IMG/VR virus record: IMGVR_UViG_3300020054_000460
Span: 1 to 34,315 of that record
Reading direction: 5' to 3' (one strand)
Origin: a virus
Length of the DNA: 34,315 nt
The notes beneath the pieces were generated by a model. It ran no database searches and was not told where the DNA came from. It saw only the letters and a program-made list of their open reading frames with translations. The position numbers were made by a program, and so were the translations under genes. This document shows, piece after piece, positions 1 to 34,315 of this stretch. The first letter of the stretch is position 1; each line of letters begins with the position of its first letter.

Positions 1-47
1 GCGGTGCCGATCGTGTTGATGCGGGCGACTGTCGTGCCTACGGCCAT
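1..47 (-). CDS. Tape measure protein, first 15 codons (partial copy across the contig end)
   Basis: The ATG at 47-45 and the codons that follow repeat the start of the tape-measure gene whose full copy begins at 34222. Reading off the left end of the window is an artefact of where the circle was cut. One codon differs between copies: base 7 gives Gly here, the right-hand copy gives Val. The start codon directly abuts the stop of the chaperone frameshift product (TAG at 50-48), and an AGGAAG sequence just upstream can serve as ribosome-binding site. Confidence 0.85.
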   Translation of the reverse strand, partial: MAVGTTVARINTIGT

Positions 48-140
48 CTACTTCCTAGCCTTCGCTCGTTGGGCGGCCTGTTCTCGTTCAGAGTGTTCGA
101 TCCGGTAGAGAGCGATCCACTCGGTCAGTTCTTCGGATGA
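1..140. repeat. Terminal direct repeat, left copy (contig circularity)
   Basis: Bases 1-140 match 34176-34315. The central 124 bases (8-131) are identical; differences fall only at 7 (c versus a), 132 (t versus g) and 138 (t versus c). This is what a circular or terminally redundant genome gives when assembly runs past its own start. A short physical terminal repeat cannot be excluded, but the copy lies inside genes (tape-measure start and chaperone end), so an assembly overlap is more likely. Confidence 0.9.
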
Positions 141-7293: not shown

Positions 7294-7592
7294 GGCGAAT
7301 AGAACACCGAACCGACAGCGGTGCCGGTGATGACCTCGCAGTAGATCCCGTCGGGACAGTGGACGCCGTTCGGCCCGTACCAGATCGTCCCGGCACCGTT
7401 CGAGGAGATGTCCAGCGCGGCGACGTGTTCGCCCGACGTCGACGTGCCGTTGTGCAGGTGGACCTTCACGTTCGCTGCGCCCTCGTCGCACAGCACGATC
7501 CCGTAGAGGACCGAGCTGCCGGTGACGATCTGCTGGTTGCCGCCGGTGAACTCGGCGATCGAGGCGGGCGGGTCGATGTACGAGTTGGTCAT
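7290..7592 (-). CDS. Small beta-rich virion-region protein
   Basis: 100 residues beginning MTNSYIDPPASIAEFTGG. The sequence is a series of short beta strands with glycine turns (VTGSSVLYGIVLCDEG, VKVHLHNGTS, GTIWYGPNGV) and no charged helices, the look of a small jelly-roll or decoration-type protein. I do not recognise a family. Its place between portal and gpF-like genes, coupled on both sides (TGATG and ATGA), makes a structural role likely. Confidence 0.55.
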   Translation of the reverse strand: MTNSYIDPPASIAEFTGGNQQIVTGSSVLYGIVLCDEGAANVKVHLHNGTSTSGEHVAALDISSNGAGTIWYGPNGVHCPDGIYCEVITGTAVGSVFYSP

Positions 7593-8920
7593 CAGTCGAC
7601 CTGCGCTTCCTCGTCGGTCGGGAGTCCGCCGATCTCTCGCAGGTAGTCGTCGAGATTGTCGTCTGGGATGAGCGCGCCCGCGGTGGCGAGGCGGGAGACG
7701 TAGTTGGAGATCGTGTCGAGGTCGGGTGCGCGTGGTGCGGTGTAGGCGATCGTCGGAGCGAGGCGCGGGTCGATCCCGTTGATCCGCATCAGGCGAGGCA
7801 CCGCGTAGCTGTTGAGGACGTCAGCGATCGAGGCGAGGTAGGCGGCGATCGAGTCCTGGAACAGTTCGATCTTCGACACCGAGAGCGCCTGCGCGCCTAT
7901 GCGGTCGTGACCGACCAGTAGGAAGTCGGCGAGCATCGTCATCGCGATCCGGGTGTCGTAGCGGCTGATGATGACGTTCGTGTCGAACTGGCGGCGACCA
8001 CCAGTGCTCATGAGCTTGATGTCGTAGGCGAGGTTGCCGGTCTCGTGGTCGTAGGCCAGGGGGAATACGAGACCCTCTTGCTCGTCGCGTCTGATGTTGC
8101 GGACGATCTCTTTGATCGCGGTGAGGGCCTGGGTCTCGGCCGATGTGGCGGAGTCGGAGAGGAGCTGGGGTGGCACGAACGCCACAGGCATCCCGGCGAG
8201 ATCGCGTTCGATGCCGATCGCTTCGATCTCGGCGATGCGCTTCTGGTAGTACCACGAGACGTAGGCCGATCGCAGGATCGAGCGGCCTTGCGGGTTGTTC
8301 ATGCGGGTCGTGGTGCGGAACAGCAGCGACTTCTCGATCGGGAGGAACACGTTCGTCCCCGCCGAGGGGTCCTGCTGGATCGCGCCCTCGATCCCGCCGT
8401 GCGAGTCGAGCTGCCATTCGGTGATGGTGTCCTGTGCCCGGACGGGGAGCTTGCGCCACCCGATCCGGCCGTCGTCGAACTTCGAGGAGGTGCCGTCGTC
8501 GGCGAGGCCGTTGCGGCGCTTGTAGACGATCTCGTGGAGCGAGTAGCCGTACACGAGGAACCCGAGGACGGACGAGATGAAGTCCTCCCACGAGGTGCTC
8601 ATGTCGGACATGCACGACGCGACGAACTCGGCCTCGTCGATGGCGGCCTGGTCGTCGGGGTCCGCGGGCTGCACGGTCCAATCGACCGAGCGGAACAACA
8701 TCTCGATCGAAGCGAGCGTCGCGCCGATGACGGGATGGTTCTCGGCCATCTCGCGGAAGATCGCCATCCCGCCTCGACCTTGAAGCTGTCGTAGGAAGTC
8801 CTCGGTGATCTGTCCCGCGTTCACCGACAGGCCAGCCGAGCCAACCTCAGCGAAGTCGGTCGACGTGACCTTCTGCTTCTTGACCGGCGTGGTCCGGCCG
8901 CCCGTCTTGTTCTGCGCCAC
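7592..8920 (-). CDS. Portal protein (Mu gp29-like, DUF935 type)
   Basis: 442 residues. Typical portal features are present: MAIFREMAENHPVIGATLASIE near residue 50, a helical crown and stem with WEDFISSVLGFLVYGYSLHEIV, the RRNGL loop, and a late FLLVGHDRIGAQALS segment followed by a C-terminal helical bundle. This matches the Mu gp29 branch of portals. The ring of twelve copies forms the DNA entry vertex and binds terminase. GTG at 8920 is the likely start, since the reading frame opens there ten bases after the protease stop, although the ribosome-binding site is weak. Confidence 0.85.
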   Translation of the reverse strand: MAQNKTGGRTTPVKKQKVTSTDFAEVGSAGLSVNAGQITEDFLRQLQGRGGMAIFREMAENHPVIGATLASIEMLFRSVDWTVQPADPDDQAAIDEAEFVASCMSDMSTSWEDFISSVLGFLVYGYSLHEIVYKRRNGLADDGTSSKFDDGRIGWRKLPVRAQDTITEWQLDSHGGIEGAIQQDPSAGTNVFLPIEKSLLFRTTTRMNNPQGRSILRSAYVSWYYQKRIAEIEAIGIERDLAGMPVAFVPPQLLSDSATSAETQALTAIKEIVRNIRRDEQEGLVFPLAYDHETGNLAYDIKLMSTGGRRQFDTNVIISRYDTRIAMTMLADFLLVGHDRIGAQALSVSKIELFQDSIAAYLASIADVLNSYAVPRLMRINGIDPRLAPTIAYTAPRAPDLDTISNYVSRLATAGALIPDDNLDDYLREIGGLPTDEEAQVD

Positions 8921-8930
8921 GATCGGCAGC

Positions 8931-10868
8931 CTACTCGCTGGTCGGGGTCAGGGATAGATCTGCCTCGACGCGGCGGGCCTTGCCGCCGATCGAGTAGCCG
9001 CGGAGCTGGCCCGCTTTGACGAGATCCCAGGCCCATGACTCCCACACGACGCCCATGAACGGGGTCTCGGCTGGGAACTCGACCTTGCGGATGTCTTCGC
9101 CTGGGAGCGAGAGCGATGTCTGGATCGGCATCGGCCAGGTCAGGATCTCGACCATCTCGCCCGCGGCTTTGTCGGAGTGCTGGAGGAAGATGGTGCGGTC
9201 GCCGGAGCGGACCCAGTCCCAGATCGCCTTCTGGAGTGTGGCGGCGTCGATGAACTCGCCGTGGCCGTCGAGGCGGCCGGGGACGTACACCGGGCCGAGG
9301 GTGTAGCGCTCCTCGGCTTTGGCGAACGGGACGACGGCGTGGAGCGCTGCGAGCTTCTCGGTGGTGTCGCCGGTCGTGTACGGCGGAGCGAACCCGAGCG
9401 CTTCGAGGCGGTCCTCGATGACGCTGCGAGCGAGGTCGAGCATCATGTCGCCGCTCGACTTGTGAGTGAGTTGGTGGGCGGCGATGAGCTGCTCAGGTGT
9501 GAGACCATCGAGCGATCGAGAGAACGACTCGATCTGGGCGAGGCGTTCCTCGGCGTCGGCCATCGTGTCGTAGCAGCCGAAGCGTCGACCACGACCCTCG
9601 GAGTAGACACAGAAGCGACCATCCTCCTCGACGATCTCCTTGCGGAACTCGTGACCGTATCCCTTCGTCTCGTCGTCGTAGCCGTAGCCCGACTCGATCT
9701 CGACGTCGACCTCGGCGAGGATCGGCTTCCACGCAGCGCAGACATACCCGGCGCGGACCGCCGCGCCGAACTTCAGGCACGCGCCGATCTTGTAATAGGC
9801 GCAGTTGTCGCAGCGACGCTGACCGTCGGCGGGTGCGTAGGCGTCGGGGAGGGCGTGCGGGATCGGTTCGCCGTCGGGGTAGCGGATGTGGGCTTTGTCG
9901 GTGTCCATGCTTTTCCTGGTCGACAGCGGGTGCCCCTCGGGCAGTAGGTCGGTGTCGAAAGCTGATCGAGGGAATCGTCCCGTGCGTACCGCGGTGAGGA
10001 ACGCGTTCACCCTGGCGTATGCCCACTGGTCCGCTGATCCGACGTTCGGTCGAACCGATGCTGGGTTGGTTCGGTAAGCGCCGACACCACGCTCGAACAC
10101 GGCGCTCAGCATTCGCAGGGTGACTCGCTTCGAGGCGGTGCTGCCGTGCTTCTCGTTGTGGTCCTCGACCTTGCGTTCGAGCGCATCTCGGACTCGGGCC
10201 GAGACTTCTTTCTTGATTCGGTCGCTGATGTCGCCAGCTGGTCGAAGTTCCGAGGCTGATCGAAGCGCCTGTCGATCGGTCGGGGTCAGGCGTCGATCTT
10301 CGTCGATGGCGTACACCTGCATCAGGACGGCGGGGTCGTCGCTCGATGCTTCTCTCGTGTCGCCTGCGCGTTCGATCGTGCCAGTGCGGAACACTTCGAC
10401 CGCGACGCCTGTGGCGTACTCGGTCGGTCCTGGCGGCTTCGGGATGGCGTAGAGGTACGCACGCCCGACACGAGCATCAGATCCCGCGACCTTCTCCAGT
10501 CGGTCTCGTGTGCGTTCAGCCCACTCCATCGCTGCCATCCTGTCCTGCCCGAGGGAACCGCCCCACAGCAACCACGCCACGATCCCTGGCGTGGGTCGAT
10601 CGGTCTCCCCATTGATGAACGCTCGACTGTCGTCTGTCTCGATGTCGCCTCGATGTCGAGCGAACCACGCGGCCATCCGGGTCACCTTGTCCTCGGACAC
10701 GTTGCCGCCTGCCATCGCCCGAGCTTCGCGGATCGTGGCAGGGCGCAGACCATCACCAGCGAACTCCAGCAGGTCCAAGCCGCGGGACGCGTTGGCGGAG
10801 ATGTACGAGGGGACTGCGACCATGCGTCGATCGTAGTCGACGAAAACGACCGCCGCCGCGGCCGTCAC
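8931..10868 (-). CDS. Head maturation protease fused to an N-terminal phage domain and a Cys cluster
   Basis: 645 residues from GTG 10868, chosen because it overlaps the TerL stop as GTGA, like many junctions here; ATG 10823 is the alternative. Residues about 17-140 carry the PSYI..NA.RGLDLLEF...G...ATI.EAR.MA..N.SED...RMAAWFARH motif block ending in GIVAWLLWGG, seen in several phage head proteins. About residue 400 is a CX2CX7CX12C cluster (RRCDNCAYY ... GACLKF ... VCAAWKP). The C-terminal 200 residues resemble the XkdF-like serine protease family (peptidase S78-type): H564 in LQHSD and S626 in GYSIGG are candidate catalytic residues. The protease should cleave scaffold and head proteins. 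The fusion is larger than usual. Confidence 0.75.
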   Translation of the reverse strand: MTAAAAVVFVDYDRRMVAVPSYISANASRGLDLLEFAGDGLRPATIREARAMAGGNVSEDKVTRMAAWFARHRGDIETDDSRAFINGETDRPTPGIVAWLLWGGSLGQDRMAAMEWAERTRDRLEKVAGSDARVGRAYLYAIPKPPGPTEYATGVAVEVFRTGTIERAGDTREASSDDPAVLMQVYAIDEDRRLTPTDRQALRSASELRPAGDISDRIKKEVSARVRDALERKVEDHNEKHGSTASKRVTLRMLSAVFERGVGAYRTNPASVRPNVGSADQWAYARVNAFLTAVRTGRFPRSAFDTDLLPEGHPLSTRKSMDTDKAHIRYPDGEPIPHALPDAYAPADGQRRCDNCAYYKIGACLKFGAAVRAGYVCAAWKPILAEVDVEIESGYGYDDETKGYGHEFRKEIVEEDGRFCVYSEGRGRRFGCYDTMADAEERLAQIESFSRSLDGLTPEQLIAAHQLTHKSSGDMMLDLARSVIEDRLEALGFAPPYTTGDTTEKLAALHAVVPFAKAEERYTLGPVYVPGRLDGHGEFIDAATLQKAIWDWVRSGDRTIFLQHSDKAAGEMVEILTWPMPIQTSLSLPGEDIRKVEFPAETPFMGVVWESWAWDLVKAGQLRGYSIGGKARRVEADLSLTPTSE

Positions 10869-12187
10869 ACTGTCCAGGGCGACTTTCGGGTCGACTGGAA
10901 AGGGACCACCGCCTGCGGCTCTCGACCGCCGACCATCAACTCCGACAGCGCCCACACGAGAGCGTCGAGCCTGTCGGGTGATGGTCCGTCTGGTGTCCAG
11001 GTGCACAGCTGATCTTCGAGTTCAGGGAACGCTCCCGCGTGGTGGACCCGGCCCTGCTCGTACAGGGCAGCGACGGGTTCGGCTCGGGTGCGCTTGCCGC
11101 GGGACGCGTGGACGAGCTTGACGGGGACCGAGGCGTCGATGGTGCGAAGGGTGTGGGAGATCATGTCGCCGCCCTGGTTCGCCTCTGCGACGATCCGGTC
11201 GGCCTTGTGGACGTGGTGCGCGGTGACCGCAGCGGACGCCCACTCGGCGGGGCTGCCCTTCATCGAGCGGTCCTCCAGGACGTAGCCGTGGCCGTGGTCG
11301 TCGACGCCTGCGACGATGATGCCGGTCTCGTCCGAGTCGACGTTGGCCGAAGCGGCTGGGTCGATCGCGACGACGACCCGGCGGAGGTTCGGGACGGTGG
11401 TGGTGCGGGCATCGTCGAGCATGTCGCGATTCCACAGCGCGCCGTCGGCGTCGAGGAGCAGTTCGGCTTCGAGTTCCTGACGACCCAGGCGGGTGCCCTC
11501 GTAGCGGTGTCGCATCTCGTCGAGGAACGTCGCGGACAGGTTGGCGGCGTTCTCGTAGGTCGAGCCTCTGGTCACGACGCAGTCGGGCCGGTCGGCGAGG
11601 TTGCGGATCAGGCGAGTCGGTCGAGGGGTGGTGGTGGCGACCGCCCGCGGTCGATCGCCGATCCGGAGGCCGAACATCAGCTGGTCCCATGCGTCGGGGT
11701 AGCGCCAGGCGGCGACCTCGTCGGCCCAGGCGAGATCGTGGTTCGGTCCGCGGAGTCGGTCGGGTTCGTCTGCTGAGTAGGTCGTGGCGATCGCTCCGTT
11801 CGGGAACGTGACCCGCCGCTTCGATGGTTCGTATCGCGGGCGGGTCTCGTCAGGGAAGATGCGAAGCAGGCCGGACTCGCCCTCGATCATCGTGTCGCGG
11901 ACGTCCGCGGCGGTCGCTCCGACGAGTGCGATGCGTCCAGCGTGACCAGACTCGACCTGTCGTCGCACCCACTCAGCACCTGACCTGGTCTTGCCGAACC
12001 CGCGGCCAGCGAGGATCAGCCAGATGCGCCAGTCGCCGTCGGGAGCGAGCTGCGCTGGGCGTGCCCACACCGACCAGTCGTAGAGGATCGACCGGATCAT
12101 GTGCGGGTCGTAGTCCTCGACCCAGTCGATGCCTTCGGCTTCCGCGGCGGCGATGAGCCGCTGCACCACCGATCGCTCGTCGGTCAC
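10865..12187 (-). CDS. terL: Terminase large subunit
   Basis: 440 residues. Walker A LAGRGFGKT (Gly61-Thr67), Walker B LAWADE (residues 152-157) and a motif-III-like TTTPRP segment (186-190) give the packaging ATPase. From residue about 272 the RNase H-like nuclease begins with VVVAIDPAAS (Asp276), and the late DRLDALVWAL carries the last acidic residue. The GTG at 12187 overlaps the TerS stop (GTGA). It cuts concatemers and pumps DNA into the head through the portal. The length is at the short end for the family, and all motor motifs are intact. Confidence 0.93.
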   Translation of the reverse strand: MTDERSVVQRLIAAAEAEGIDWVEDYDPHMIRSILYDWSVWARPAQLAPDGDWRIWLILAGRGFGKTRSGAEWVRRQVESGHAGRIALVGATAADVRDTMIEGESGLLRIFPDETRPRYEPSKRRVTFPNGAIATTYSADEPDRLRGPNHDLAWADEVAAWRYPDAWDQLMFGLRIGDRPRAVATTTPRPTRLIRNLADRPDCVVTRGSTYENAANLSATFLDEMRHRYEGTRLGRQELEAELLLDADGALWNRDMLDDARTTTVPNLRRVVVAIDPAASANVDSDETGIIVAGVDDHGHGYVLEDRSMKGSPAEWASAAVTAHHVHKADRIVAEANQGGDMISHTLRTIDASVPVKLVHASRGKRTRAEPVAALYEQGRVHHAGAFPELEDQLCTWTPDGPSPDRLDALVWALSELMVGGREPQAVVPFQSTRKSPWTV

Positions 12188-12657
12188 GCTTCGAGCTTGC
12201 GAAGACGTTCTCGGAGGATCTCGCCGACGTCGGTGCGGAGTGGTCCGCCTTCTGGGCCGGTGACCTCGAGCTGGCGCGGTGCGTCCATCCCGAACAGTTG
12301 ACGACGTGCGCTCGAGATTCTGATCGCTGAGTTCGTGAGGGTGGCGAGCTGGTTCGGATCGGCGTCGGCTCCGAGCTGGGCGATCGCGGTCGACACTCGT
12401 CGCCATAGCTGGTCGATGCGTTCACCCTCGGACGCTCGAACCTCTTCGACTGCCGCGGTTCCCCATCGCTTCAGGGCGGCGTCGTAGGCGCGTTTGGCGG
12501 AGGACCGATCGGCGTAGCCGACGTGGTCGGCGATCTCGTCGAACGTCCAGCCGACTCGGCGCAGTTCGACGACTTTGCGGTAGCGGTCGGCTTCGTCGGG
12601 TGTGAGCGCGGCGGTGGCGTTCTTCTGTGGTGCGGGGTGTCCGGGCTTGCGGGCCAT
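12184..12657 (-). CDS. terS: Terminase small subunit
   Basis: 157 residues beginning MARKPGHPAPQ. A helix-turn-helix (about residues 35-60, GWTFDEIADHVGY ... AKRAYDAALKRW) precedes a helical oligomerisation region and a charged C-terminus (LRERLRKLEA). This is the DNA recognition subunit that marks the packaging site and feeds TerL. No ribosome-binding site precedes the ATG; instead TACACT lies six bases upstream, so the message is probably leaderless. It overlaps TerL by GTGA. Confidence 0.82.
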   Translation of the reverse strand: MARKPGHPAPQKNATAALTPDEADRYRKVVELRRVGWTFDEIADHVGYADRSSAKRAYDAALKRWGTAAVEEVRASEGERIDQLWRRVSTAIAQLGADADPNQLATLTNSAIRISSARRQLFGMDAPRQLEVTGPEGGPLRTDVGEILRERLRKLEA

Positions 12658-12663
12658 GTTGCG

Positions 12664-12691
12664 AGTGTAGCGTTGTCGGGCGGGTGGTCTA
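12664..12691 (-). promoter_or_regulatory. Leaderless late promoter at terminase
   Basis: TACACT at 12669-12664 on the minus strand is followed by six bases and the TerS ATG (12657). TAGACC at 12691-12686 (four of six to TTGACA), 16 bases upstream, is a possible -35 and overlaps the stop of the methyltransferase gene. The context resembles the promoter at 6055 (TACACT followed by YCG). Confidence 0.6.
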
Positions 12692-14077
12692 GTCGACGAA
12701 GTTTCGGGCCTTGCCAGTTCGTTCGAGGATGGGCTTCGTGTCGGTGTGTCGCTGGTATCGGTTGCAGATGATGTCGACGTAGATCGGGGAGATCTCGATG
12801 CCGTGGCCGCGTCGGTTGTTGGCGTCTGCGGCGAGGATGGTCGAGCCTGATCCGCAGAAGGGGTCGTAGACGATGTCGTTGTCGTCGGTGTAGGCCTTGA
12901 TGAAGAACTCGGGGAGGCCGACTGGGAATGCTGCGCCGTGGCCGGTCGCTTCGTGAGATGAGGCGAAGGTTGGGAGTCTGTTGGATGGGTAGGCGAGTCC
13001 TGGTTCGCTTCTGATCTTGAAGTCGAACCCTGGCTGGCCTTGTCGTTCGGCGTTGCTGCTCCCTTGGAGCTTCGCCCAGTTGGTGTCGCCCGCGCCTGGT
13101 CCTAGTGCCTGTGGGACTCGTTCCGATTCGTAGGTGACTGCGTCAGGGTTGAATCGCCACTCCTCGCCTGGGCGGGTGAACTGGTAGACAGGCTCGAACG
13201 CGTTCTTGAATCGACGGGCGGGTCTCATCGGGACGCCGTTGCGTTCCCAGCAGTACTCGGTCGCGATGTTCCATCCCCATCGTGTGTAGTGGGCGTTGAC
13301 GAGATCCATGACGTAGGTCTCCATCGAGAGGCCGTTCGATCCTGCCTTGATGTTCATGAAGTACGAACCGTCGTCGGTCAGGTGGTGGAGGATGTTGTCC
13401 GCGATTGGTTGATACCAGTCGACGTACTGGTCGGGTGGGATCGGTTGGAAGGGGGAGTCCTCGTCGTACTTCCTGCGGTCGGCGTATGGCGGGGATGTGA
13501 CGGCGAGGTTGATCTGTTGGCCGTTGAGGAGGCGGGCGACGTCGTCGGGGTTGCGGGAGTCGCCGCACATCACTCGATGGTTGCCGAGTAGCCAGATGTC
13601 GCCAGGCTTCGCGATGCGAGGCACTTCTGCGAGCGGTTCGGGTAGGTCGGTGTCGTCGGGCTGTTGGAACGACTGGTCGAGTTCTGCGAGGAGGTCGTCG
13701 AGGTCGTCGCCGTCGTAGCCTGTGCCTTCGAGGTTGCCGTTCTTGCCCATCTCGGCGAGGAGGTCTGCGAGGGCGTGGTCGTCGTAGGTGGCGAGGTCGG
13801 TGGTGCGGTTGTCGGCGAGGAGGATGCGGTGGGCGGTGTCGTCGTCGACGTCGACCCAGTGGACGGGGACGCGGTCGATGCCGCAGTGGATCGCAGCCTG
13901 GAGACGATGGTTCCCGACGAGGACGTGCCCAGTGGAGATCTGAGCGACGAGCGTGCCGTACCAGCCGTTCGATTCGATCGACTGGATGATCGCGCCGACG
14001 TCGCCTTGTCTCGGGTTGGATGGGTGGGAGACGAGTTCGGTGAGTGCTGTTTTGCGGATGCCTGGCTTCGGGGTCAT
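12689..14077 (-). CDS. ParB-domain/DNA methyltransferase fusion, SPPY type
   Basis: 462 residues. Residues 1-134 are a ParB/Srx-like domain (IRKTALTELVSHPSNPRQGDVG, then GHVLVGNHRLQAAI). The methylase has TSPPY at 194-198 (motif IV) before DPFCGSGST near residue 405 (motif I), the beta-class order. SPPY is usual for N4-cytosine methylases and some N6-adenine ones. No matching restriction enzyme is seen. It presumably modifies phage DNA to evade host restriction. The start at 14077 aligns with the twin gene; ATG 14098 is also in frame. The N-terminus is 92% identical to that of the gene at 14109-15608. Confidence 0.85.
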   Translation of the reverse strand: MTPKPGIRKTALTELVSHPSNPRQGDVGAIIQSIESNGWYGTLVAQISTGHVLVGNHRLQAAIHCGIDRVPVHWVDVDDDTAHRILLADNRTTDLATYDDHALADLLAEMGKNGNLEGTGYDGDDLDDLLAELDQSFQQPDDTDLPEPLAEVPRIAKPGDIWLLGNHRVMCGDSRNPDDVARLLNGQQINLAVTSPPYADRRKYDEDSPFQPIPPDQYVDWYQPIADNILHHLTDDGSYFMNIKAGSNGLSMETYVMDLVNAHYTRWGWNIATEYCWERNGVPMRPARRFKNAFEPVYQFTRPGEEWRFNPDAVTYESERVPQALGPGAGDTNWAKLQGSSNAERQGQPGFDFKIRSEPGLAYPSNRLPTFASSHEATGHGAAFPVGLPEFFIKAYTDDNDIVYDPFCGSGSTILAADANNRRGHGIEISPIYVDIICNRYQRHTDTKPILERTGKARNFVD

Positions 14078-14108
14078 GTTTCGAGGATCGTCTTTCATGT
14101 CGGGTTGG

Positions 14109-15608
14109 TCAGGGTCGGGTTGCGGTCTGGCCGGTGTGGTCTTCCCAGCGTTGGACGATGACGTCGCAGTAGCCGGGGTCGAGTTCGGCGGCGTAGACAG
14201 TGCGATCGTTGTTCTCGGCAGCGATGATCTCGGGGCAGGTTCCGGCGAACGGGACGGCGATGACGTCGCCTCGGTTGGAGCTGGTGCGGATGGCTCGTTC
14301 GGTGAGTGCGACCGGCTTCGGTGTGTCGTGCCCGTGCCGGTCATCGCCTCGTGGACTGTCGAAGGTCCAGACGTCGGTCATGTTGTCGTGGGTGTTGTTA
14401 AACGGTGCACGCGTGGCATACCAGGCATCTTTGAGATCTTGATACGACGTCCGATCGATTCCTTTGTAGTTCGTGGAAAGCGTGTCGAAGCCTTCCACGA
14501 ACGCTTGCCCGTCTGCGGCGTCTCGGAGCGCGTTGTAGTGCTTCTCGGGGATCATGACCCACTGCGACTTCGTGAACCAGTGGGAATACATGCCGACGCC
14601 GGTGATGCGCTTGATGTCCTTCGCTGTCCATCCCATCTTGTCGACTTCGGCGGCGAGGTGGCTGCGGATCGGTTCCCAGCCTTCCCAGTACTCGTCGGCG
14701 TTCGTGCTCATCGTCTGGCGTCCGAGCATGATGAGGAGGCAGCGTTCGGTCTCAGTCGAGTACATCCGACGTTCGTCTTGGTTCTGGCCTTGGGCGTTCC
14801 CTTTCGCCCACACGATCTCGTTCCGCATCTCGATCACTTCGGAGTCTCGAAGTCCGCCGAGATACCAGAGCCGCCACAGGTCATCGGCGATTCCCCAGAT
14901 GTACGCGGAGGCGTTGTCGAGGATGTGGGCGCGCCAGGTGGTCCACCATCGCATCTGGAACGCGTCGAGCTTCGGGCCGTGCTGGTTGTCGCCTGCGATG
15001 GTCTCCTTGTTCATGCCGTATGGCGGGTCGGCGTGGATCATCTGGGCGGGTTGCCCGTCGGCGAATAGGCGGGCGATGACTTGCGGGTCGGTCGTGTCGC
15101 CGCAGATGAGTCGGTGGTTCCCGAGGAGGATCAGGTCGCCGGGTTGCGTGATCGGGTCGTCGGGTGGTGCCGGTGTCGGTGGTTCGTCGGCGTCGGGACC
15201 GTGGCGTTCGAGGTCGGCGAGGAGATCGTCGAGGTCGTCGCCGTCGTAGCCTGTGCCGTCCAGGTTGCCCGTCTTGCCCATCTCGACCAGCAGTTCGGCG
15301 AGGGCGTGTTCGTCATATGTGGCGAGATCGGTGGTGCGGTTGTCTGCCAGGAGGATGCGATGCGCCGTGTCGTCATCGACATCGACCCAGTGCACCGGGA
15401 CACGATCGAGACCGCAGTGGATCGCGGCTTGGAGGCGGTGGTTGCCTGCGAGGACGTGGCCGGTGGAGATCTGTGCGACGAGGGTGCCGTACCAGCCGTT
15501 CGATTCGATCGACTGGATGATCGCGCCGACGTCGCCCTGCCGCGGGTTCGATGGATGCGGGACGAGTTCGGTGATGGCGGTCTTGCGGATGCCTGGCTTC
15601 GGGGTCAT
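14109..15608 (-). CDS. ParB-domain/DNA methyltransferase fusion, DPPY type
   Basis: 499 residues. The ParB-like domain (1-134) is almost the same as in the following gene (123 of 134 residues), but the methylase is different: DPPYGM at 194-199 (motif IV) and VPFAGTCPE around residue 455 (motif I), again beta-class. DPPY is typical of N6-adenine methylases. A long insert (about 240-430) may be the target recognition region. Part of this insert (about 14390-14600) is visibly less GC-rich than the neighbours, hinting at separate origin. ATG 15608 is eight bases from a TACCGT -10 box, so it is likely leaderless. Confidence 0.85.
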   Translation of the reverse strand: MTPKPGIRKTAITELVPHPSNPRQGDVGAIIQSIESNGWYGTLVAQISTGHVLAGNHRLQAAIHCGLDRVPVHWVDVDDDTAHRILLADNRTTDLATYDEHALAELLVEMGKTGNLDGTGYDGDDLDDLLADLERHGPDADEPPTPAPPDDPITQPGDLILLGNHRLICGDTTDPQVIARLFADGQPAQMIHADPPYGMNKETIAGDNQHGPKLDAFQMRWWTTWRAHILDNASAYIWGIADDLWRLWYLGGLRDSEVIEMRNEIVWAKGNAQGQNQDERRMYSTETERCLLIMLGRQTMSTNADEYWEGWEPIRSHLAAEVDKMGWTAKDIKRITGVGMYSHWFTKSQWVMIPEKHYNALRDAADGQAFVEGFDTLSTNYKGIDRTSYQDLKDAWYATRAPFNNTHDNMTDVWTFDSPRGDDRHGHDTPKPVALTERAIRTSSNRGDVIAVPFAGTCPEIIAAENNDRTVYAAELDPGYCDVIVQRWEDHTGQTATRP

Positions 15609-15647
15609 GCCCGTCGACGGTAGCGCCCTCGGTTACCGTTGATGGTG
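15609..15647. promoter_or_regulatory. Symmetrical divergent promoter of whiB-like and methyltransferase genes
   Basis: The 39 bases between the two start codons contain ACGGTA (15617-15622) and TACCGT (15634-15639), an inverted repeat with an 11-base spacer. Each arm reads as a TANNNT -10 box towards its own gene, and in both directions exactly eight bases separate it from the ATG (15608 and 15648). No ribosome-binding site is present on either side. One protein binding the repeat could control both genes. Confidence 0.55.
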
Positions 15648-15878
15648 ATGGAGAGCGTCGAGTGGATGCGAGACGGGGCGTGCCGTGGCGGGTCGGTCGA
15701 CGTGTGGTTCCCTGAGCAGCCTGACTTCCGAGAGGCTCGGGAGGTGTGCCGTCGGTGTCGAGTCCAGGTGGAGTGCCTCGACTATGCGGTGCGGCGTCCG
15801 GAGGTGTTCGGAGTGTGGGGCGGGACGTCCCCGGCGGAACGCGTCGAGATCAGACGACGCAGGATCGCTGGGTCGTAG
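15648..15878 (+). CDS. WhiB-family iron-sulfur transcription regulator
   Basis: 76 residues. Cys12, Cys34, Cys37 and Cys43 (CX21CX2CX5C) are the four ligands of the WhiB 4Fe-4S cluster, and GVWGGTSPAER (55-65) is the WhiB turn motif; the basic end (EIRRRRIAG) is the DNA- or sigma-contact tail. WhiB proteins act on promoters through the primary sigma factor and exist only in Actinobacteria and their phages. A phage homologue in mycobacteriophage TM4 (gp49) is known to interfere with host WhiB2. The start at 15648 is chosen for symmetry with the divergent gene; ATG 15642 and TTG 15639 are possible. The last 97 bases overlap the convergent gene at 15782-15955. Confidence 0.9.
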   Translation: MESVEWMRDGACRGGSVDVWFPEQPDFREAREVCRRCRVQVECLDYAVRRPEVFGVWGGTSPAERVEIRRRRIAGS

Positions 15879-15955
15879 TGCTCGCCGGTTCCGCCGAGGG
15901 TCCGGTAGAGGGCTCGGAGTTCGGCGACGTTCAGATCGTCGAGCGTCACCCTCAC
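15782..15955 (-). CDS. Small protein, last gene of the leftward accessory cassette
   Basis: 57 residues from GTG 15955 (GTGA overlap with the preceding stop): VRVTLDDLNVAELRALYRTL, then GEHYDPAILRRLI and a Pro/Thr-rich tail. The first half looks like a short helical pair (LN..EL..LYR). I recognise no family. Its last 97 bases lie antisense to the WhiB-like gene, so the C-terminal tail may simply be readthrough of non-conserved sequence. Coupling to the preceding gene is the main evidence that it is translated. Confidence 0.5.
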   Translation of the reverse strand: MRVTLDDLNVAELRALYRTLGGTGEHYDPAILRRLISTRSAGDVPPHTPNTSGRRTA

Positions 15956-28563: not shown

Positions 28564-28699
28564 CGTCGCCAGCCTCGGCTTCGGCGACGCGCGCACTCAG
28601 GACTTCGTTCTGCGCCGTGAGCACGGCGATCTCGAACTCGTTCGGGAATCGGGTCTGGAGGATTGCCAGGACCCGGTCGGTCAGGTTGATCTCGGTCAT
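28529..28699 (-). CDS. Small coiled-coil protein after the tail fibre
   Basis: 56 residues: MTEINLTDRVLAILQTRFPN, then EFEIAVLTAQNEVLSARVAE and an acidic tail. One amphipathic helix with heptad leucines, so probably a small coiled-coil or chaperone for the fibre; no family known. The ATG at 28699 overlaps the fibre stop as ATGA, and the tail overlaps the start of the mucin-like gene by 35 bases. Confidence 0.6.
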   Translation of the reverse strand: MTEINLTDRVLAILQTRFPNEFEIAVLTAQNEVLSARVAEAEAGDDATVDLDPPDE

Positions 28700-29829
28700 G
28701 CTTCGAGCGTAGCGACCCGAGCGCGTAGGTCTTTCACGGCGAGGACGAGGAGCGACAGGTAGGCGGTCTTGTTGATGCCGGTCAGGAACGGGACGTCCTC
28801 GGCGTCCGTTCCACGAGAGGCGAGGAACGGTGAGATCGCGTCCATGTCCTCAGCGATCGGGCCGATCTCGGGGTAGCCCGGTGCGTTGATGCGGTTCCAC
28901 ATCTTGGGCACGACCGAGTCGATCATGTCGGCGGTCAGGTGCTCACCGAGGTCGTCGGTGATGTTCTCCTTCTCGGCAGCGGTCGACGAGTTCCGGCGCA
29001 GGTAGTAATACCCGAAGGTCAATGCCCACTCGGCGTCGTTGCCAGTACCGGTGGTCGGGCTGAGTGCGTAGACCGACTTGCCGCTCGTGTTGATCCGGAG
29101 GTTGCCATCGCTGAGAACTGCGACATGGTTCGAGTTGCCTGCCCGCAGGCTTAGCTGGTCGCCGTCGGCACGGATGCCGACGTAGGAACTGCCCGTCGTT
29201 GAGTTGTCCACCAGGCTGAGGATCGCACCGGCATCGGTCGACTCGAACGTCGCCACGTTGTTCACGGTGCCTGCGTTCACATGCAGCTTGGCGCTCGGGG
29301 TAGAGGTGCCGATGCCGACCTCACCGCCAGCTTCGATCGCCATCCGGGTGAGGTTGTTCGTGGCGAAGTAGATGAGGCCAGACGACGTTTCGTTCTTGAC
29401 ATACAAGTCGTCGTTATCTGGGAACCCAAGAAACCCGAGCCGACTGTTGAGGTCGAACAGGCCGATGTACGGCCCCTCGTTCTCGCCTGCATTGTTCTCC
29501 AGTCGGAGAAGCTCGGATGAGCCATCATCTCGGCGGACGTGAAGCGGCGCTTGCGGTCCGGTCGTGCCGATGCCCATCCTGCCAGAGTCCGACATGATCG
29601 TATGGTCGCTGCCTGCAACCTCGAACCGGATGTCGTTGCCGCCGCCGCCGTAGATGCGGGCGAGGTCGGTGTCCGCCGAGTCGGTGAACTTGATCGCGAA
29701 GTTGCTCGTGCCGGTCGAGTTCGTGTCCTTGAGAGTCAGGACCGGCGTCGCATCCGTCAGCGTCAGCGAGTCGATGTCGAGGTCGTTCAGTTGGGCGGCG
29801 GTCAGCACCTGACCGGATGTGAAGCTCAT
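28696..29829 (-). CDS. Tail fibre with C-terminal S74-type intramolecular chaperone
   Basis: 377 residues. MSFTSGQVLTAAQLNDLDID is a typical fibre opening. The middle has repeated beta segments ending in VGIG and MGIG (MGIGTTGPQAPLHVRR, VGIGTSTPSAKLHVNAG). The last 100 residues fit the peptidase S74 chaperone: RRNSSTAAEKENITDDL (cleavage region), IGPIAEDMDAISPFL, GINKTAYLSLLVLAVKDLRA. Such domains trimerise the fibre and then cut themselves off. It should carry receptor binding. Confidence 0.82.
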   Translation of the reverse strand: MSFTSGQVLTAAQLNDLDIDSLTLTDATPVLTLKDTNSTGTSNFAIKFTDSADTDLARIYGGGGNDIRFEVAGSDHTIMSDSGRMGIGTTGPQAPLHVRRDDGSSELLRLENNAGENEGPYIGLFDLNSRLGFLGFPDNDDLYVKNETSSGLIYFATNNLTRMAIEAGGEVGIGTSTPSAKLHVNAGTVNNVATFESTDAGAILSLVDNSTTGSSYVGIRADGDQLSLRAGNSNHVAVLSDGNLRINTSGKSVYALSPTTGTGNDAEWALTFGYYYLRRNSSTAAEKENITDDLGEHLTADMIDSVVPKMWNRINAPGYPEIGPIAEDMDAISPFLASRGTDAEDVPFLTGINKTAYLSLLVLAVKDLRARVATLEA

Positions 29830-31510: not shown

Positions 31511-34222
31511 TTAGCTGCCCGTCGTGATCGGGACGTTGCCATTGCGTCGTGAGTACGAGTCGAGGGTCCGAATGATGTCCGAGGCGTCCGAGCCGACCGG
31601 CATCTGGATCGTGACGTTCATGGTGCCACCGCCACCGAACCCGGCCGGAAGCGGCGACGCACCCGGCGCAGTCGACAGCGGCACGACCGCTTCCGGACCG
31701 GCCTCCCCGATGAGCGCGGTGGTCGGGCGGCGGACGATCGCACCGGTCGCACCTGCGAACCCGCGCAGCTCACGCCCGATGCCGAAGTCGTCGACACCGA
31801 ACACCTCGCTCAGTACTCGCACGTTGAACTCGATGTCCGCGCCTTCGAGCGCAGCCAGGATCAGTTGCAGCTCGGCGATCTCGTCGATGCCTCGACCAGC
31901 CGCCTCGCCGATAGCAGAGAGCGACGTCACCATCGTCTGCACCGAGACGAGCGCAGCGGGATCGTCGAACACATCGATCTTCGCCAGCATCTCGTCGAGG
32001 ACTCCGGCGACGTCATCGCCGCCTCGGACGAACGCCTCCGCCATGTCCGGCGCGTTCTTCTTGCCGATCTGCGCGGCGGTCTCCGCAAGCTCCGAAGCGA
32101 CCCGCTCCGCCTCGTAGAGCGCGTTGCCTTCGCCGAGGATCGCCTCCATGAGCTTCGAGAACTCGTCACGCATCCGGAACGTCTCGTCGGCGCTCAGCCC
32201 CATCGCACGCGCCATCTCATCCGCCCCAGAGATCACCTCGTCGATCGGTCCGCCGGTCTCGGCGAGTTCACCGCCGAGCGTGTCAACCTCGATACCGGCA
32301 CGGTGCGCTTCGATCGACATGCCGTTCAGCGACTCGGCGTGGTTCTGGACGAGCGTGTCGACCCGGCCCATGATCTCCAGGTTCGACAGGTTCTGCCGCT
32401 GGTATCCGGCGATGATGCCCTCGCCATCGAGGTAGATGTCGTTCAGTAGCCGGACAGCGTCGCCGCTATCGACCAACGCCTCTGCCTGAGCTTCGAGTTT
32501 CTTGCGATTGTCGTCGAACGCATCAGCGGTCTCATCGACGACGTCGAGCATGTCGTCGAGTTGCTTGATCTCCAGGTCGCCTGCGTCGAAGGCGTCGATC
32601 AGCGCTTCCGCCAGCAGACGCTCCTCTCCGGTCAGGTCCCGTATCGCCGTTCGCATCGCGTCAGCCGACTTGGTGTTTTCCAGTACGTCCTGCAACTCCT
32701 GGAACGCGTCGGTGCCGCTCTCAGCGACGACGGCCACGTCGTTCATCGAGATCCCGAGTTCGTCGAACAGCGGCAGCGTGTCGTTCCCCAACGCCAACCC
32801 GAGCGCCGTGGACGAACCGACGATCGTGTCGACATCGTCGGTCGTGTCGTCCGCTGCGTCGCCGACGTCCCGGATCGCGGCGGCGAGTTCTTCCATCCGG
32901 CCGATCATGATGTGCGTCGGACTGTCGGCGTCGATGAACTCCTGGGTGAGTTCTTCCTGCCGGTCCTTCGCCTCGCGAGCGTTCCCGGCCATCTCGCCGA
33001 AGACGTAGAACAGACCGCCGAGAGCGATAGCGATCTGACCGATCGGGCCGGACGCCACCACGATCGCCGTGATCCCGGCTGCGGCTGCCAACGCTGCCGG
33101 GTGCATATCCTGGAACCCTTCGATCAGGAACTGCACACCTTCGAGCATCTGCAACACGATCGGGATGATCGTCTGCCCGATCCCGATCAGCGTCTCCTGA
33201 AGGTCGGCCATCGCCTGCTGAAACTTGAACCCGGCCGTGTCCGACACGACAGCGAACGCGTCGTCGAGCGTGCCGGTCGTGTCGCGCATGTTGGCGAAGA
33301 TCTGCTCGGTCGTCGCGACGTTCGCGCCCATGAGGTCCATGACGCCGGACAGCGCTCGGACGTTGCCGAATACCGAGGCGGATGCGGCGGCGTTCCCGTC
33401 GAACTCCTCGGCGAGCGTCTGGAGCGTCGCCAGGAGGCCTTCGTCCTTGATCTGTTGACGTAGTCCTTCGGACGAGAGGCCCATGCCTTCGAGCGCTTCC
33501 TCGGCCTGCTTGGTGGGTCGCAGCAGCGAGGACAGGATGCCGCGCACCTGGGTCGCTGCCTCGGCGGCGTTCGTGCCGGTACGAGACAGAGCGGCGAACG
33601 CTGCGCCGACCTCGTCGAACCGGACACCCATCGCAGAAGCGATCGGGAGGACTCGACCCATCGACCCGGCCAGCTCGGATGCTTCGAGCTTGCCTTCTCG
33701 GACGGCGGCGGTGAGGACGTCGGTTGCTTGGACTGCCGACAGGTTCTCGGCTCCGTATGCGTTGAGCGCCGAGGTGGCGAGGTCGGCGATCTCGGTGACT
33801 TCGCCGAGACCGACCGCTGCGGCTTGCGCTGATGCTTCGAGGGTCTCCATCGCCACCGCTCCTCGGAGACCGGCAGACTGGATGAAGAACATGGCGTCGG
33901 CGAGAGCACCGGGTGCCTGGGCGGTCTCGCCCGATAGCGCCCGCACCGACTCAGCCATCGCGTCGACTTCGGACCCGGCGATACCGACCAACGATTCGAT
34001 CTTCGTCATCGAGTCGTCGAAGTCGACAGCAGCCTTCACGGCGGCCGCACCGACACCGATAAGACCGAGGGTAAGCGGACCCGACGCCGCACGTGCGGCG
34101 GTCGTCGCCGCCTTCTGAAACTCGCCCGCCTGAAGCTGCGCCTTCGCCATTCCGAGCGTGTACTGCTTCGTGTTGGCGGTGACGATCGTGTTGATGCGGG
34201 CGACTGTCGTGCCTACGGCCAT
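31511..34222 (-). CDS. Tape measure protein
   Basis: 903 residues. N-terminal helices precede the TP901-type domain (about 70-340: DDSMTKIESLVGIAGSEVDA, FFIQSAGLRGAVAMETLEAS, FAALSRTGTNAAEAATQVRG). A hydrophobic double segment (375-408) could insert into the host membrane. Long helical spacer and C-terminal TALIGEAGPEAVVPLS follow. It sets tail length: 903 residues correspond to about 135 nm if the usual 1.5 angstrom per residue holds. It starts next to the chaperone stop. Its first 47 bases recur at the left end of the window. Confidence 0.9.
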   Translation of the reverse strand: MAVGTTVARINTIVTANTKQYTLGMAKAQLQAGEFQKAATTAARAASGPLTLGLIGVGAAAVKAAVDFDDSMTKIESLVGIAGSEVDAMAESVRALSGETAQAPGALADAMFFIQSAGLRGAVAMETLEASAQAAAVGLGEVTEIADLATSALNAYGAENLSAVQATDVLTAAVREGKLEASELAGSMGRVLPIASAMGVRFDEVGAAFAALSRTGTNAAEAATQVRGILSSLLRPTKQAEEALEGMGLSSEGLRQQIKDEGLLATLQTLAEEFDGNAAASASVFGNVRALSGVMDLMGANVATTEQIFANMRDTTGTLDDAFAVVSDTAGFKFQQAMADLQETLIGIGQTIIPIVLQMLEGVQFLIEGFQDMHPAALAAAAGITAIVVASGPIGQIAIALGGLFYVFGEMAGNAREAKDRQEELTQEFIDADSPTHIMIGRMEELAAAIRDVGDAADDTTDDVDTIVGSSTALGLALGNDTLPLFDELGISMNDVAVVAESGTDAFQELQDVLENTKSADAMRTAIRDLTGEERLLAEALIDAFDAGDLEIKQLDDMLDVVDETADAFDDNRKKLEAQAEALVDSGDAVRLLNDIYLDGEGIIAGYQRQNLSNLEIMGRVDTLVQNHAESLNGMSIEAHRAGIEVDTLGGELAETGGPIDEVISGADEMARAMGLSADETFRMRDEFSKLMEAILGEGNALYEAERVASELAETAAQIGKKNAPDMAEAFVRGGDDVAGVLDEMLAKIDVFDDPAALVSVQTMVTSLSAIGEAAGRGIDEIAELQLILAALEGADIEFNVRVLSEVFGVDDFGIGRELRGFAGATGAIVRRPTTALIGEAGPEAVVPLSTAPGASPLPAGFGGGGTMNVTIQMPVGSDASDIIRTLDSYSRRNGNVPITTGS

Positions 34223-34315
34223 CTACTTCCTAGCCTTCGCTCGTTGGGCGGCCTGTTCTCGTTCAGAGTGTTCGATCCGGTAGAGAGCGATCCACTCGGT
34301 CAGTTCGTCGGACGA
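34176..34315. repeat. Terminal direct repeat, right copy
   Basis: Same sequence as 1-140 with three differences at the very edges. It carries the tape-measure start and the end of the chaperone -1 frame. At base 34307 the chaperone codon changes Glu to Asp; at 34313 the change is silent. Confidence 0.9.

Follow-up and report, generated by a model that had tools for sequence, protein, structure and literature searches.

Two predicted leaderless promoters arranged back to back between a WhiB-like gene and the packaging operon of uncultured actinophages

The sequence analysed here, referred to as the window, comprises positions 1 to 34,315 of the IMG/VR virus record IMGVR_UViG_3300020054_000460. 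A single gene was identified on the plus strand of this stretch, and it encodes a WhiB-like (Wbl) protein of 76 aa (15648..15878). The protein matches the Pfam WhiB family (PF02467, E 9e-19) and PDB chains named WhiB, WhiB1, WhiB3, WhiB4 and WhiB7, and its sequence presents the defining Wbl features, with four conserved Cys and a GVWGG turn conforming to the G[VI]WGG pattern. An in-frame ATG at 15642 was considered as the WhiB start and dropped, as it is absent from relatives, in which the conserved start is that at 15648. A small minus-strand open frame (15782-15955, VRVTLDDLNVAELRALYRTLGG...) overlaps the 3' end of whiB, and a similar frame is present in two related loci (L119 and L121).

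Diverging from whiB on the minus strand is a gene of 499 aa (14109..15608) that combines a ParB-like N-terminus with an N6/N4 DNA methyltransferase. The methyltransferase part is identified by the N6_N4_Mtase domain (E 6e-20) and the N-terminal part by a strong match to ParB-like PHROGs, with Pfam ParB_N falling below its cut-off. This gene is followed, on the same strand, by a second ParB-methyltransferase (12689..14077), a small-terminase-like gene (12184..12657) and the large terminase (10865..12187). The tandem ParB-methyltransferases (12689-15608) are near-duplicates in their ParB parts (88% DNA identity) and differ in their methylase parts. The similarity between the copies ends at the start codon, and the second copy hence lacks the promoter box, with no TAnnnT at its start. 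The small-terminase-like gene owes its assignment to its location ahead of the large terminase and to a weak HTH match, its PHROG match carrying the name 'RNase E'; a separate TACACT box (12664-12669) precedes the ATG of this gene by 6 bases. To the right of whiB lie replication-side genes (RusA-like and replication initiation-like), also on the minus strand. The two ends of the window (1-140 and 34176-34315) share 140 bases with 3 mismatches, which suggests that the genome, at about 34.2 kb, is circularly permuted and nearly complete, though the record is linear in IMG/VR; ParB-methyltransferase pieces likewise lie at both ends of a related contig (L003, 34588 bases). Among cellular sequences, the large terminase has its closest relative (70%) in L279, a 5.3-kb contig binned as Acidimicrobiaceae, a weak hint as to the host.

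The 39 bases between the two start codons contain ACGGTA (15617-15622), followed by 11 bases (15623..15633) and TACCGT (15634-15639). Each box lies exactly 8 bases from an ATG, at 15608 on the minus strand for the ParB-methyltransferase and at 15648 on the plus strand for WhiB, and the inverted repeat and spacing described in an earlier note on this DNA are hence present. Read on its own strand, each box is a -10-like TACCGT of the form TAnnnT, the left one (minus strand) facing the ParB-methyltransferase and packaging operon and the right one (plus strand) facing whiB. If the genes are leaderless, the 8 bases separating each box from its ATG (15609..15616 on the minus strand and 15640..15647 on the plus strand) would fall outside the mRNA. 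A search for sigma-70 -35/-10 matches returned none, and little conservation was observed upstream of the whiB box among 16 whiB loci picked for a box at 8 bases. The complete layout, CAT-8-AnnnTA-11-TAnnnT-8-ATG, occurs once in the window and in none of 100 dinucleotide shuffles, indicating that the promoter-like layout, and not the repeat, is the non-random part of this region. Although ACGGTA-N11-TACCGT has no other copy in the window, a 6-bp inverted repeat arises by chance in 11% of shuffled 39-mers and in 15% of window 39-mers, and the window contains 19 repeats with 6-base arms separated by 11 bases. Taken alone, the 6-bp repeat is a weak and unremarkable signal.

Comparison with related loci separated the boxes from their symmetry. 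The 8-6-11-6-8 geometry is exact in five relatives (L003, L004/L094, L005, L016 and L271), all of which present both TAnnnT boxes 8 bases from an ATG, with varying inner letters and an 11-base gap conserved in length and not in sequence; in L271 a GTG also lies three bases closer to the box than the ATG at 8 bases. Across the window and these five relatives, the left box reads TACCGT in three cases, TATCAT in L005, TACTGT in L016 and TAGCTT in L271, and the right box of L003 reads TAGCGT with no matching change on the left. The most informative relative is L016, the methyltransferase of which is 90% identical to that of the window and the WhiB only 45%. L119 and L121 lack the ParB-methyltransferases, and the direct divergent neighbour of whiB is the small-terminase gene, with a TACACT box of its own 6 bases before the ATG; in both loci the whiB box is unchanged and the mirror arm is missing. 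As read from these sequences, the relatives conserve two TAnnnT boxes at a fixed distance from the start codons, and not the mirror symmetry. The proposal that the arms are -10 elements is borne out by this pattern, in which TAnnnT is kept at 8 bases from the start while adjoining bases vary. The proposal that the mirror symmetry is itself a functional element is not, since the symmetry is broken in L003, L005, L016 and L271, and in L119 and L121 the left arm is absent and the right box persists. That the two boxes have near-identical letters would mostly follow from each having the TAnnnT form in a G+C-rich genome.

The repeat can also be extended into an imperfect dyad (15611..15645), with arms at 15611-15622 and 15634-15645 (CCGTCGACGGTA / TACCGTTGATGG) that match at 10/12 positions in the window. 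This extended dyad, CCrTCrACGGTA-N11-TACCGTyGAyGG, might constitute an operator, specific to the closest relatives of the window, for a dimeric repressor other than WhiB that would shut both promoters, adding to them and not replacing them. The dyad scores 11/12 in L004 and 9/12 in L003, values of at least 10 and at least 11 being equalled by only 2.3% and 0.3% of random 45-mers from the window, and the region shows a hairpin-like fold (z -2.6). Against an operator, the score falls to 5-7/12 in L005, L016 and L271, and no compensating left-arm changes were found for the right-arm substitutions in L003 and L004, so that the conserved dyad with compensating changes typical of dimeric-repressor operators is not observed here. 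Moreover, arms from one locus match each other no better than arms from different loci, and the two boxes, compared across lineages, do not clearly share more inner bases than randomly paired boxes (p about 0.1) among the 16 loci picked for a whiB box at 8 bases. We hence regard the operator as unlikely; it retains some probability as a feature of the clade formed by the window, L003 and L004, because close relatives are few. An RNA hairpin function for the repeat was also considered and dropped, because the repeat sits upstream of the predicted transcription starts.

The identification of the boxes as promoter elements draws additional support from their genome-wide distribution. In actinobacteria, a TAnnnT located about 12 bases before the start codon is a signature of leaderless transcripts (PMC3160421), and TAnnnT is the preferred SigA -10 element in Mycobacterium smegmatis (PMC6448022). 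For both genes considered here, the first T of the box lies 14 bases upstream of the start codon, close to this position. Only 49 instances of TAnnnT occur on the two strands of the window, versus 148 expected from dinucleotide shuffles, a threefold depletion, as if spurious -10 elements were avoided. An ATG is found 6-9 bases downstream of TAnnnT in 9 cases, versus 2.2 expected, including those of the small-terminase gene and a gene at 28696-29829, and a GTG 7 bases past TAnnnT marks a gene (7592-8920) at, and named from, the portal-gene position. In a set of 26 non-redundant terminase relatives of high GC, an ATG follows at 6, 7 and 8 bases in 36, 21 and 16 cases, versus 8.1 expected. A TAnnnT 6-8 bases before ATG is hence a genome-wide signal in the window phage and its high-GC relatives. 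The motif is short, and with 6-bp inverted repeats expected in 11-15% of such stretches, the boxes could be chance matches, with transcription of both genes beginning elsewhere. The absence of the layout from the shuffles, its position-specific conservation in diverged loci and the genome-wide ATG peak make this explanation very improbable.

Analysis of terminase relatives with at least 3 kb of upstream sequence, near-duplicates included, revealed a whiB gene divergent from the packaging operon in 16 of the 18 loci at G+C >=0.60 and in 4 of 23 below that value. Within the 16 loci picked for a whiB box at 8 bases, a choice that precludes their use as an estimate of box frequency, the gene divergent from whiB is ParB-like in 12 (a misframed row, L041, was left out of the ParB profile); other whiB loci have boxes at 6-10 bases, or none. 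Across these 16 loci the boxes are 11 bases apart in the group of the window and mostly 31-59 apart elsewhere, with one locus at 160, and full overlap is therefore not universal. Several lineages repeat the pattern in which WhiB is divergent from a ParB-like gene heading the terminase operon. The methylase had been put forward as the counterpart of WhiB in the switch, and this pairing does not hold across loci, in which whiB faces a ParB-like gene that may or may not include a methylase, or else the small terminase. A scan of viral contigs for the layout returned 19 stretches, four of them known whiB/ParB relatives and 15 without either gene. In the cultured phages Sonali, Edmundo and Kithara, which have similar ParB DNA, no whiB is annotated beside it; searches with the window WhiB against cultured phages returned no match at E 1e-5 and eight weak matches when E values up to 10 were allowed, and no description of the whiB/ParB-methyltransferase pair was found in the open-access literature. 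At the level of sequence comparison, the back-to-back arrangement of the boxes is conserved in many uncultured phages, and the mirror symmetry is not.

Overall, these results make it quite likely that the 39 bases between the start codons contain a back-to-back pair of separate leaderless promoters, both minimal and of sigma-A type, an assessment that covers the two promoters and excludes any step involving WhiB. In each putative promoter, the TAnnnT located 8 bases from the start codon would be the -10 element, with no recognisable -35, so that leaderless mRNAs starting at or adjoining the ATG would be expected for both genes. The left promoter would head the packaging and structural operon, from the ParB-methyltransferases through the terminase and onward, and the right one would drive whiB as a single plus-strand gene, making the region a meeting point of the replication-side genes and the packaging operon. 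With predicted starts about 41 bp apart, the -35 region of each polymerase would overlie the start region of the other, and two polymerases should therefore be excluded from occupying one DNA molecule together. The earlier note had anticipated this overlap, which does follow from the geometry, and had deduced from it that the two genes are mutually exclusive. This strict form is at odds with results on five Escherichia coli bidirectional promoters, where basal competition is negligible and activation of one direction represses the other (Warman et al., PMC12825309); exclusivity should accordingly be conditional. The most likely use of the two promoters would be temporal, with strong activation in one direction occluding the other.

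The agent of such activation could conceivably be WhiB. Wbl proteins act by binding region 4 of sigma-A (PMC10245118), and as a member of this family WhiB might, as a tentative proposal, shift the balance through this contact at its own promoter, at the packaging promoter or at both. More tentative still, and on balance rather doubtful, is the complete scheme, in which a timing switch under WhiB control would be widespread among uncultured actinophages: WhiB on host sigma-A would direct polymerase to one of the two overlapping leaderless promoters and the other would be silenced by occlusion. The form originally envisaged, in which WhiB and a partner sit on the repeat as a dimeric regulator and render whiB and the methylase mutually exclusive, shares with this scheme two promoter-like, overlapping boxes and an adjoining gene that is a genuine whiB. 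It is nonetheless quite improbable, given that the symmetry is not conserved, that the partner gene varies, that bidirectional promoters at basal activity lack measurable competition (PMC12825309) and that Wbl proteins work with sigma-A region 4 (PMC10245118) and are not known as dimeric repeat binders. The two-promoter arrangement nevertheless outlines, for a group of uncultured actinophages, a regulatory hub that is compact and amenable to testing, in which a phage whiB diverges from the head of the packaging operon and both promoters are predicted to be pared down to leaderless -10 boxes. At 39 bp, this DNA can be tested directly, and it bears on what phage WhiB proteins do in lytic timing.

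Several known systems offer points of comparison. Like the bidirectional promoters analysed by Warman et al., the phage locus presents divergent and overlapping polymerase sites in a short segment, where steric competition is possible. Those promoters share one symmetric -10 and have starts mostly 10-23 bp apart (PMC12825309), whereas the phage locus has two separate -10 elements 11 bases apart and predicted starts at a greater distance, and does not belong to that class. The WhiB of phage TM4 and the loci of clusters EK, K and T similarly combine a phage-encoded Wbl with conserved local synteny; the part of that work considered here describes replication and other neighbours and does not mention a terminase or promoter (PMC8612146). 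The autoregulated WhiB7 promoter provides a model for the putative WhiB step, with a Wbl that works on its own promoter by way of sigma-A region 4; the AT-rich upstream tract and AT-hook (RGRP) noted there are not seen at the phage locus or in its WhiB (PMC3905903, PMC10245118). Finally, although they belong to an uncultured phage and lie back to back, the two predicted promoters share with actinobacterial leaderless promoters a TAnnnT 6-8 bases before ATG or GTG, the lack of an obvious -35, uninformative middle three bases and a high G+C context.
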